Shown here: one piece after another, positions 1 to 3,787 of the stretch
How positions within the stretch are numbered: position 1 is the first letter of the stretch
Layout: the number at the start of each line of letters is the position of its first letter
IMG/VR virus record: IMGVR_UViG_3300035145_002391
Coordinates: 1 to 25,559 of that record
DNA: 25,559 bases
Direction: 5' to 3' (one strand)
From: a virus
Position numbers and translations under genes: made by a program
Notes under the pieces: generated by a model
Database searches by the model: none
What the model was told of the DNA's origin: nothing
Seen by the model: only the letters and a program-made list of their open reading frames with translations

Positions 1-233
1 GCGGTATGGAAACAATAGGTTCAGCAGAGAGATCTACAGATGTTGATCAAATGCGTGATACATTTCACACTATAACAAATGGTGCATATAGCAATCTACT
101 GTACGAACTATTTTCAAAAGAACGTGTTGAAGCAGAACTTGAAAAGTTTTTAGAGTTTGACTTCTTCCCAAGAGTCGGGGGCGGTATTGGAATGACTAGA
201 ATGATTGCCGCACTAGACAAGTTAGAAGGTTAA
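1..233 (+). CDS. Class II synthetase-like protein (AsnRS/AsnA type), 3' fragment
   Basis: This is the C-terminal end of a gene that starts before the window: the frame is open from base 3 and the first ATG, at 6, lies inside the domain. About 76 residues remain. The fragment GGGIGMTR near the end is a class II motif 3 with the catalytic arginine; it is very close to the GGGIGQSR motif of asparagine synthetase AsnA and related to the motif 3 of asparaginyl-tRNA synthetases. ETIGSAERS resembles the G-S-E-R segment of Asn/Asp-specific enzymes. Only about 12 residues follow motif 3, which is shorter than usual. Known members activate aspartate or asparagine with ATP; which reaction this one performs cannot be decided from the fragment. 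It ends six bases before a tRNA with an Asn anticodon, so a role in charging that tRNA is an attractive inference. Confidence 0.7.
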   Translation, partial: GMETIGSAERSTDVDQMRDTFHTITNGAYSNLLYELFSKERVEAELEKFLEFDFFPRVGGGIGMTRMIAALDKLEG

Positions 234-239
234 TTATAA

Positions 240-340
240 TCTGGGGTGGTGGAAATGGTAGACACGCATGATTGTTTCTCATGTGCCAAATGTACTGCAA
301 TATATTTAGCGTGAAGGTTCGAGTCCTTCCCCCAGAGCCA
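240..340 (+). tRNA. Class II (long variable arm) tRNA with anticodon GUU (Asn), leucine-like body
   Basis: A complete cloverleaf can be drawn. Acceptor stem 240-246/330-336 (TCTGGGG/CCCCAGA), discriminator G337 and encoded CCA 338-340. D arm 249-265 with the Leu-type GGTAGAC loop. Anticodon stem 267-271/279-283 and loop TTGTTTC (272-278), giving anticodon GTT at 274-276. The long variable arm has a 7-bp stem, 288-294/301-307, with a 6-base loop. T arm 313-329 (GAAGG TTCGAGT CCTTC). Body layout matches bacterial tRNA-Leu almost position for position. However, U1:A72, G73 and the GUU anticodon are features of tRNA-Asn. Position 37 is U where a purine is expected. It has no recognisable promoter of its own and probably reads through from the upstream synthetase-like gene. 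Confidence 0.85.
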
Positions 341-357
341 ATTTTTTCCAAAAAAGG

Positions 358-386
358 TTGACTTTTATAAATAGAGATACTATATT
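358..386 (+). promoter_or_regulatory. Sigma70-type promoter for leader peptide and tRNA-Trp/Cys
   Basis: TTGACT (358-363) and TATATT (381-386) are separated by exactly 17 bp, predicting a start near 393. A/T tracts lie just upstream (341-355). The promoter sits between the GUU tRNA and the leader ORF, so the leader-terminator-tRNA unit can be transcribed separately from the synthetase gene. A T4-late-like box lies inside the spacer. Confidence 0.7.
366..373 (+). promoter_or_regulatory. Late promoter box TATAAATA
   Basis: Exact match to the T4 late promoter octamer, placed about 6 bases before a predicted start near 379-380. It lies within the spacer of the sigma70-type promoter, so the tRNA leader could be transcribed both early and late. 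With only eight AT-rich bases, a chance match is possible. Confidence 0.45.
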
Positions 387-415
387 AGTATTATTAACAA
401 AGAAGGAATATTTAC

Positions 416-463
416 ATGATTAAGACTATCAGAACAAATATTAATTGTTGGCCTCCAGGTTAG
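416..463 (+). CDS. Leader peptide MIKTIRTNINCWPPG (15 aa), putative attenuator
   Basis: A 15-codon ORF with a strong Shine-Dalgarno (AGAAGGAA, 401-408) 7 bases before its ATG. It ends in TAG at 461-463, well before an intrinsic terminator at 497-533. The peptide contains Asn (437-439, 443-445), Cys (446-448) and Trp (449-451) codons, then Pro-Pro-Gly-stop. Asn, Cys and Trp are exactly the identities of the three tRNA genes around it. The bases overlapping its stop (459-466) are complementary to the 5' arm of the terminator. Together this is the layout of a classical amino-acid attenuator such as trpL, but its targets would be tRNA genes. The Pro-Pro-Gly end is a known EF-P-dependent stalling sequence and may add a second pause. 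I do not recognise the peptide from a known family. Confidence 0.75.
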   Translation: MIKTIRTNINCWPPG

Positions 464-507
464 GGGTATGTCTTGACGTGAATTTTCAACGTTGTTAAGC
501 CCCTAGT
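459..507 (+). promoter_or_regulatory. Putative antiterminator pairing (459-466 with 500-507)
   Basis: GTTAGGGG (459-466) can pair with CCCCTAGT (500-507): six Watson-Crick pairs and two G-U pairs. This would tie up the 5' arm of the terminator (497-505). A ribosome at the leader stop codon would cover 459-466 and leave the terminator free to form. A ribosome stalled on the Cys or Trp codons (446-451) would leave 459-466 accessible. The loop also contains a small ACGT/ACGT hairpin (476-479/489-492). Confidence 0.55.
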
Positions 508-533
508 AATTAGTTTTATTAGGGGCTTTTTTT
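497..533 (+). terminator. Intrinsic terminator upstream of tRNA-Trp
   Basis: AAGCCCCTA (497-505) pairs perfectly with TAGGGGCTT (520-528), a 9-bp stem with four consecutive G-C pairs plus one more. It is followed by an unbroken run of seven T (527-533). The T-tract ends immediately before the first base of tRNA-Trp (534), so any transcript that stops here excludes the two downstream tRNAs. Confidence 0.9.
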
Positions 534-607
534 GTCGGTGAAGTGTTACGGTAGCACATCAGTCTCCAAAACTGAAGGCCGGGGTTCGACTCCCTGCACC
601 GATGCCA
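534..607 (+). tRNA. tRNA-Trp (CCA)
   Basis: Cloverleaf: acceptor 534-540/597-603 (GTCGGTG/CACCGAT, closing G1:U72 wobble), D stem GTGT/GCAC, anticodon stem TCAGT/ACTGA with loop CTCCAAA (anticodon CCA), four-base variable loop, T arm CGGGG TTCGACT CCCTG, discriminator G604 and encoded CCA 605-607. G73 fits bacterial tRNA-Trp. The G1:U72 pair and an A at position 8 (usually U) are unusual. The gene starts directly after the terminator T-tract and is separated from tRNA-Cys by one base, so both are probably cut from one precursor. Confidence 0.9.
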
Positions 608-608
608 A

Positions 609-682
609 CACCTAGTGGCAGAATGGCTATGCAACGGACTGCAACTCCGTGTATGGGGGTTCGATTCCCTCCTAGGTGTCCA
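609..682 (+). tRNA. tRNA-Cys (GCA)
   Basis: Acceptor 609-615/672-678 (CACCTAG/CTAGGTG), D arm GCA...TGC, anticodon stem ACGGA/TCCGT with loop CTGCAAC (anticodon GCA), T arm GGGGG TTCGATT CCCTC, discriminator U679 and encoded CCA 680-682. U73 is the main tRNA-Cys identity element, so the assignment is firm. It follows tRNA-Trp after a single base and precedes the ligase promoter by 7 bases. Confidence 0.93.
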
Positions 683-2494: not shown

Positions 2495-3787
2495 ATGGCA
2501 TTACCAAAACGAACAAAGAAGAAAGTTGTCAGAGGAGCGCCAAGAGTACGGCGTGGTGATAAATTAAAAGCACCGAGTTGGGATGGATGGGAAGAATGGA
2601 GTGGTGAGCAATTTCATAGATTCCGTGATGCTAGTCGTGCTTTTTACTATGAAAACTATAAAGCCGCTGATTTGTATCCACATACCTACAAGTGGATGAA
2701 AGAAAACGGATATACTGCTGAACAAATTAGACAAGCAAAAGCCGCTCCTAGTTATGAATTAAGTATTACTGCCGCTATAGTTGCAAAGCAACTGCTAGAT
2801 GGCATGCCCGATTATAATGCAAAACAAAATGAATATTGGGAAAGCCTGCCTGGCACAATGGGCAGTGTACAGCCTGCTTCAGTATTCTTAAAACAACGAA
2901 TTGAACGTGCAATTGAAGTTGGTAGCAAAGTTGTAGAAGTCAAGAAAGAAGAAGAAAAGGCAAAGAAAGATGTGTATGTGCCTAGTATACAAGAGCGTAT
3001 ACGTGACCAAGCATATATACAAAGCGAAGCAATTGAAGATTGGTTAGAAGGTTGGTTAGTTGACCCAAAGTCATTTGACCCGAAAGGGTTCGACTTCAAA
3101 AAACACTTTTCAGATAAAGGTGTTACACAGGCACATGCTAGAAAGTTAAAAACATTCTATGTAGATGCTCTAGTAGACTTTGATGAATTAGAACGATATC
3201 CTACAGCAGGACAATTGAAAAAAATGAGTGAGCTTGATCAAGATTTGTGGGCTCAACTCAAAGAAGGTTATTCACATATCAAGAAAGCAGACATCAAAAA
3301 CTATCGTATTGCAATAGGAGAACTTATAACAGCATTAGATTTTGTAATTGATAGTGCAAAAGCAACACGCAAGCCACGTAAACCGAAGGTATACAGTGCT
3401 GATAAACTTGTTGCAAAATTAAAGTACCTCAAAGTTGATGACAAGTATAAACTTGCAAGTATTGATCCTTCACAAATTATCGGTGCAAATGAGCTGTGGG
3501 TTTTTAATGTTAAAACTAGAAAATTAGGCAAATATATTGCTAGTAATATAGATCCAAAAGGCATGCAACGAGAAGGTAGTGGACTCAGTGTAAAAGGCAC
3601 CACTATTCAAGGATATGACGAATCATTAAGTTTACAAAAAACGCTTAGAAAACCTCCAGAGCAATTGAAAGAATTCAAAGACGCAGGAAAAGTCAAATTA
3701 CGTAAGTTTTTAGATGAAATAGCAACAACCGACACAAAGCTCAATGGAAGAATAAATCCTGAAACTGTGCTACTTAAGGTTTCTTGA
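2495..3787 (+). CDS. Basic, lysine-rich hypothetical protein (430 aa)
   Basis: Start ATG 2495 has a strong SD (AGGAGAG) and follows a consensus promoter. The N-terminus is very basic (ALPKRTKKKVVRG...RVRRGDK), followed by an aromatic W-D-G-W-E-E-W stretch, a charged helical segment around residues 145-160 (V-K-K-E-E-E-K-A-K-K) and alternating basic and acidic helices. No signal peptide, membrane segment or catalytic motif is visible. The basic N-terminus suggests nucleic acid binding, and the sigma70-type promoter suggests early or middle expression, but neither proves a role. I do not recognise the family. Its stop overlaps a late promoter box serving the next gene. Confidence 0.8.
   Translation: MALPKRTKKKVVRGAPRVRRGDKLKAPSWDGWEEWSGEQFHRFRDASRAFYYENYKAADLYPHTYKWMKENGYTAEQIRQAKAAPSYELSITAAIVAKQLLDGMPDYNAKQNEYWESLPGTMGSVQPASVFLKQRIERAIEVGSKVVEVKKEEEKAKKDVYVPSIQERIRDQAYIQSEAIEDWLEGWLVDPKSFDPKGFDFKKHFSDKGVTQAHARKLKTFYVDALVDFDELERYPTAGQLKKMSELDQDLWAQLKEGYSHIKKADIKNYRIAIGELITALDFVIDSAKATRKPRKPKVYSADKLVAKLKYLKVDDKYKLASIDPSQIIGANELWVFNVKTRKLGKYIASNIDPKGMQREGSGLSVKGTTIQGYDESLSLQKTLRKPPEQLKEFKDAGKVKLRKFLDEIATTDTKLNGRINPETVLLKVS

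Follow-up and report, generated by a model that had tools for sequence, protein, structure and literature searches.

Sequence evidence for a putative transcription attenuator of phage tRNA genes with leader codons that follow the encoded tRNAs

The stretch of DNA analysed here (the window) covers 25,559 nt of the virus record IMGVR_UViG_3300035145_002391. Near its start lies a short tRNA operon preceded by the parts of an attenuator, all on the plus strand. The operon begins with a sigma-70-type promoter at 358–386 (TTGACT-17-TATATT, 10 of 12 consensus matches), for which the −35 box occupies 358–363 and the −10 box 381–386 with a spacer of 17 nt. A Shine-Dalgarno sequence, AAGGA (403–407, read from the sequence), is located 8 nt upstream of the ATG of a leader ORF with 15 codons, MIKTIRTNINCWPPG* (416–463; ATG at 416, TAG at 461–463; 93 related leaders). 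Its putative sensing codons are the Cys codon TGT (446–448) and the Trp codon TGG (449–451), together 446–451. The 5' strand of the antiterminator, GTTAGGGGT (459–467), overlaps the leader stop codon and is followed by a conserved GGGGTATGTCTTGACNTGAYTTT block (463–486), inside which the leader stop codon of most relatives is found. An intrinsic terminator at 497–533 consists of a 13-bp stem without mismatch (497–509/516–528, dG −19.2), a 6-nt loop and a U-tract that ends at 533. The two genes of the controlled cluster come directly afterwards: tRNA-Trp (CCA) at 534–607 and tRNA-Cys (GCA) at 609–682, both called by ARAGORN and Rfam (59 and 58.7 bits, respectively). The end of the unit is marked by the next promoter, a 12/12 match (TTGACA-16-TATAAT, 690–717) that serves the DNA ligase gene, and as this promoter is separate and perfect we treat tRNA-Trp and tRNA-Cys as a unit of their own. 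The fold of 393–535 has a z-score of −3.75 and none of 200 shuffled sequences was as good. An initial annotation had described the promoter, the Shine-Dalgarno sequence, the 15-codon leader and a perfect intrinsic terminator abutting tRNA-Trp with tRNA-Cys behind it, and we recovered each of these in the same place. The competing antiterminator that it had placed at 459–466/500–507 is also present and spans 459–467/499–507, i.e. 9 bp including G-U pairs.

To collect relatives we used the downstream ligase as query, which led to 80 IMG/VR loci with 77–93% identity; at many of them this cassette stands ahead of tRNA-Trp. We found further loci by scanning with the conserved block and with the terminator, both of which leave out the sensing codons, and leaders were called with a stop-position rule that is blind to Trp. 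The collection comprises 93 elements, 83 of which are distinct by leader codons and tRNA cluster, and all of them stem from uncultured phages. Matches from the last pattern scan at L253, L255, L257, L258 and L260–L264 had no tRNAs and were discarded as chance matches. In 90 of the 93 elements a promoter with at least 9 of 12 consensus positions lies no more than 90 nt ahead of the leader start, compared to 24 of 93 shuffles, and most leaders are preceded by an AGG-type Shine-Dalgarno sequence. The element cannot be put down to chance since it is conserved across 93 elements; a lack of such conservation was one outcome that would have refuted the original proposal, but the Trp codon is shared by all 93 and the pairing by all 92 in which a terminator was parsed.

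One copy each was counted in phage records of 228 and 275 kb, and none or one in other records. Elsewhere in these phages, tRNA clusters that begin with a Thr, Ser, Asn, Gly, Arg or Leu tRNA are without the element. At least eight tRNA-Trp genes of related contigs are preceded by a plain promoter alone, without an attenuator, so the element is optional and not necessary. Among isolate phages it was not found (blastn returned matches to the tRNA only, and in the search for isolate relatives the ligase was less than 60% identical to any record), nor was it found in a scan of bacterial genome contigs. We infer that the source viruses are marine because homologues occur in Prochlorococcus phages; the records themselves do not show this and the host is not known.

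An in-frame Trp codon is found in each of the 93 leaders, the first one lying 10–22 nt before the GGGG of the antiterminator. Among the distinct combinations TGG occurs in frame in 83 of 83, compared to 0 of 83 for the two alternative frames. The leaders mostly stop with TGA or TAA at +11 or +12 from the GGGG; those of the window and of L003 end at an earlier TAG. Only Trp is invariant and the neighbouring residues vary with the tRNA content. Loss of the Cys/Trp codons in relatives had also been named as grounds for rejecting the proposal, but besides the universal Trp most leaders have Cys next to it. Comparing close leader pairs we counted 48 synonymous and 40 nonsynonymous single changes, where a synonymous fraction of only 0.22 would be expected without selection. 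Judged by this excess the leader peptide appears to be translated and under purifying selection.

Two other residues were considered as sensed codons and rejected. Pro follows directly after Trp in 64 of 86 leaders, is near-constant and shows no tRNA association (p = 0.3). Pro-Pro behind the sensing codon persists regardless of tRNA-Pro, and perhaps it acts as a pacing element for the ribosome. The Asn residues of the leader were linked to a tRNA-Asn in the initial annotation. This link did not hold: the Asn residues are replaced among relatives (TNTTN/TNTTY/TNTTS) and follow no controlled tRNA, and the upstream tRNA with the GUU anticodon is located before the promoter.

We then modelled the two alternative structures. 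In all 92 parsed elements the GGGG strand and the 5' arm of the terminator can form an antiterminator helix of 5–10 bp, and the mean modelled dG is −18.1 kcal/mol for the antiterminator and −18.8 kcal/mol for the terminator. In these models antiterminator and terminator are mutually exclusive, as expected of an attenuator. The footprint of the ribosome was assumed to reach from −18 to +11 relative to the A-site codon, and the direction of the result was kept for front edges from +10 to +13. With this footprint, 97% of the antiterminator pairs (88 elements) remain free when the ribosome is on the last Trp/Cys codon, 29% two codons later and 2% at the stop codon, which bears out the earlier inference that a ribosome at the stop codon would cover the antiterminator and one at the Cys/Trp codons would not. 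At the point where the 5' arm has just been made, a ribosome on Trp gives a median modelled antiterminator probability of 0.97 and a ribosome on the stop codon gives 0.00. In the window the value is weaker for Trp (only 0.29) and good for Cys (0.81). Without a ribosome, and with the 5' arm already synthesised, its antiterminator has a probability of 0.75, and we saw no 1:2 protector hairpin. At equilibrium the full terminator is favoured in the model, and the decision therefore has to be a kinetic one, like that of classical attenuators. The outer antiterminator pairs are nearly invariant (G-C in 79–81 of 81), and RNAalifold reported a helix of only three pairs on the gappy alignment. Compensatory changes in 459–466/500–507, which had been suggested as a check, were hardly seen in relatives because GGGG/CCCC barely varies, and covariation is thus uninformative here.

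The composition of the leaders can be compared to the tRNA genes behind the terminator. In 83 of 83 distinct combinations the first of these is tRNA-Trp. Two or more ATA codons were found in the leaders of 17 of the 18 clusters that contain tRNA-Ile(TAT) or a CAT tRNA compared to 2 of the 65 others (p = 1.5e-14). Where an AUA-reading tRNA is encoded, 48 of 48 leader Ile codons are ATA; where it is absent we counted ATT 47, ATC 3 and ATA 11 times, so that ATT and ATC make up 50 of 61. A Cys codon stands beside Trp in all 45 clusters with tRNA-Cys (45/0/21/17 in the two-by-two table, p = 1e-7), and leaders without it never go with tRNA-Cys. At least two Tyr codons were present in 5 of 5 clusters with tRNA-Tyr and in 1 of 78 others (p = 2e-7); this threshold was set after looking at the data and a later locus, L266, breaks the Tyr rule. 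Leader Gln goes with tRNA-Gln (p = 3e-5) and leader Ser with tRNA-Ser (p = 8e-5). For Pro, Arg overall and Lys codons no association with the tRNA genes was detected. As several codon types were tested, we corrected for about ten tests, which ATA, Cys, Tyr, Gln and Ser survive. The ATA, Cys and Tyr associations vanish in frames +1 and +2. One cluster with tRNA-Arg(ACG), L115, has a CWRR leader in which Arg-Arg (CGC CGC) replaces the usual Pro-Pro. Leader codons that vary with tRNA content in relatives, as had been predicted, are thus observed, and the matches of ATA with tRNA-Ile, Tyr with tRNA-Tyr and Arg-Arg with tRNA-Arg go beyond the Cys and Trp codons named at the outset. Later codon-blind scans yielded four further distinct elements, in which the Trp, first-tRNA and ATA rules each held in 4/4.

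There are exceptions in which a codon occurs without its tRNA: Cys in 21 leaders, ATA in L084 and L236, and Tyr in L266. We searched for the missing AUA tRNA in L084, L096, L176 and L236 and did not find it. A CAT tRNA without tRNA-Ile(TAT) is present in seven distinct clusters, six of which have two or three leader ATA codons; the exception, L170, has a different CAT tRNA. None of the seven leaders contains an internal ATG. ATA-rich leaders without internal ATG suggest that these CAT tRNAs are Ile2-type (lysidine) tRNAs that read AUA, an inference from sequence that is also supported by their C4-G69 pair, which we take to be a TilS determinant.

Taken together with the spacing, these observations make it very probable, in our judgement, that the element belongs to the trp/his type of ribosome-mediated transcription attenuators and controls a phage tRNA operon. 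RNA polymerase would start at the 358–386 promoter and a ribosome would translate the leader. As long as the Cys and Trp codons are decoded fast, the ribosome would reach the stop codon and cover the GGGG, the terminator would form and the tRNA genes would stay off. If a charged tRNA is short, the ribosome would stall on its codon and leave the GGGG free to pair with the 5' arm of the terminator, and transcription would enter the tRNA genes. The tRNA product could then relieve the stall and close a negative feedback loop, so that the leader would sense the decoding of those codons that are served by the operon's own tRNAs. The interpretation in the initial annotation is thereby supported apart from its Asn link. 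From the sequences we can demonstrate the parts, their conservation, the translation-type selection, the codon-tRNA matching and the spacing; stalling, read-through and feedback are inferred, and there are no expression data.

Many of the leaders are closely related and tRNA clusters move as modules, so leader types and tRNA sets might simply have been inherited together without a functional link. We therefore shuffled the tRNA sets within groups sharing the first four leader residues. The observed agreement was reached in 0 of 20000 permutations for ATA and in 29 of 20000 for Cys, i.e. the association persists within leader types. A tree built from 60 neighbouring ligases requires at least seven changes for ATA leaders and six for tRNA-Ile. 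Independent pairs on this tree agree in up to 4/4 cases for ATA (mean 3.7/4 on supported branches) and in 3/3 for Tyr with none opposed in either case, although there are too few pairs for the sign tests to reach p = 0.05 alone. Sister loci illustrate the pattern: L056 has five ATA codons and tRNA-Ile, and L228 has YWY and tRNA-Tyr. The ligases of the window, L003 and L002 are ∼93% identical, and L002 alone has three ATA codons and alone has tRNA-Ile. Permutations and tree comparisons support a codon-tRNA match beyond ancestry, and since the association is also missing from the other reading frames we give co-inheritance very little credence. It is just as hard to believe that a plain terminator merely ends an upstream transcript next to an unrelated micro-gene, with the tRNAs relying on constant read-through. 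Phage units are often separated by terminators, but here the unit's own promoter is directly upstream in 90 of 93 elements, the antiterminator strand sits at the stop codon, the position of the Trp codon is fixed and the element is missing from other tRNA clusters.

The most serious competitor to attenuation by codon decoding is a sensor of amino-acid starvation, in which the leader reports a shortage of Trp, Cys and other amino acids and the tRNA genes are an incidental output. The architecture is that of the trp and his attenuators, both Trp and Cys belong to the scarce amino acids, and in theory codon choice influences the sensitivity to amino acids (PMC1183508). However, additional tRNA genes cannot cure amino-acid starvation, and the Ile codons change from ATT to ATA exactly where an AUA-reading tRNA is encoded, which points to the supply of isoacceptors. 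We thus consider this explanation improbable without dismissing it. An arrest peptide like TnaC or SecM is less plausible again and can hardly be expected: Trp-Pro-Pro often follows the sensing codon and Pro-Pro slows ribosomes, so that a WPP-type peptide might stall them, perhaps with a ligand, yet the motif varies freely with the tRNA genes (CWPP, WCPI, WCSP, CWRR, YWYPP, GWPS), the match to the tRNAs is at the codon level, and the leaders have no conserved arrest residues of the TnaC/SecM type beyond the invariant Trp.

The putative phage attenuator resembles those of the E. coli trp, his, leu and thr operons in its leader with regulatory codons, its exclusive terminator and antiterminator and the decisive role of the ribosome position. 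It differs in several respects. The E. coli attenuators control biosynthetic enzymes and usually sense one amino acid per leader, often by runs of codons, whereas the phage element precedes tRNA genes and combines several codons, and only in the phage element does the sensed codon set follow the encoded tRNAs. Moreover, we saw no protecting 1:2 hairpin and the ribosome-free window favours the antiterminator. The output of E. coli pheST with its pheM leader is PheRS, a part of the decoding machinery, sensed via the charging of tRNA-Phe; unlike the phage element this system is cellular, uses a single codon type and produces an enzyme and not a tRNA. T-box riboswitches and the leader of B. subtilis rtpA (anti-TRAP) link tRNA charging to the transcription or translation of tRNA-related genes, and in contrast to the phage element the T-box RNA binds the tRNA directly. 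Searched with the Rfam T-box covariance model, the window gave nothing at gathering threshold and the relative L061 nothing at E-values up to 5. Among the amino-acid leader families of Rfam nothing matched the window at gathering score, where it gave tRNA matches only, and His_leader (RF00514) scored 25.7 bits on L061 with a gathering score of 49 bits. While architecture and logic are thus those of known ribosome-mediated attenuation, we did not find the tRNA-gene target, the sensing of several codons or the match to the encoded tRNAs described. No attenuator of tRNA genes turned up in the literature searched, in line with the initial annotation, which knew of none for phage tRNA genes; subscription papers were mostly outside this search and the result is no proof.

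The reason for tRNA genes in phages has been a matter of debate for decades, and knowledge of their regulation is sparse. Phage tRNAs can replace depleted host tRNAs against tRNA-cleaving defences, as in the case of the T5 tRNA-Tyr and retron-Eco7 (PMC11555353, PMC10264068). T5 uses a strong promoter, whereas the phage element would provide a conditional supply; a term search of the two papers found no attenuator or leader. As a speculation that we regard as possible but rather doubtful, the attenuator could be an infection-time alarm for tRNA-targeting immunity: host nucleases would cut tRNA-Trp, -Cys, -Tyr or others, the ribosome would stall and replacement tRNAs would be made. The leader would then be a modular sensor that evolution rewires whenever the tRNA set changes, and stalling in the leader would be well suited to signal tRNA-depleting defences. 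Leader codons that match the controlled tRNAs make the question of the purpose of phage tRNAs testable, as the leader indicates the codons that are limiting from the phage's point of view, predicts a conditional tRNA supply and could serve directly as a reporter when tRNAs are depleted in the course of infection. Attenuation would extend from amino-acid enzymes to the supply of tRNAs, with one leader responding to several codons together. The collection also represents a set of natural sensor/output pairs for study.

Several neighbouring features were also observed. The initial annotation listed a tRNA-Asn (GUU) at ∼240–341. Neither ARAGORN nor Rfam called it; judged by eye, the sequence forms a tRNA whose anticodon is GTT and whose variable arm is long. 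As it lies upstream of the promoter it is not under control of the terminator. It has T at position 37, and where the window and L003 differ in its anticodon stem, paired changes preserve the stem. Directly before the tRNA lies a class II synthetase-like gene; this arrangement was seen in the window (1–341), L003 (4639–5594) and L002 (1–243). In L003 the gene encodes 281 aa, matches Pfam tRNA-synt_2 (D/K/N) and is too short for the usual anticodon-binding domain; the two genes are possibly a private synthetase/tRNA pair. Unusually long variable regions were also seen in the tRNA-Ile(TAT) genes of L002 (610–703), L056, L103, L146, L194 and L216. In L061 (∼3370–3460), L129, L138, L098, L151 and others a structured RNA of ∼85 nt separates the terminator from tRNA-Trp (CTACACTA...CTGCAA loop...TTGCAG...TAGTGTAG, possible pseudoknot, z −3.0); the copy in L061 matched no Rfam family. 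L185, L188 and L191 have a different small RNA in the same gap. Such a spacer RNA could be a processing element or a ribozyme. Finally, L002 contains at ∼700–840 a further promoter and a possible mini-ORF (GTGGTTAGTTCTAGGTAA) before tRNA-Arg(GCG), which might be another leader-type control.
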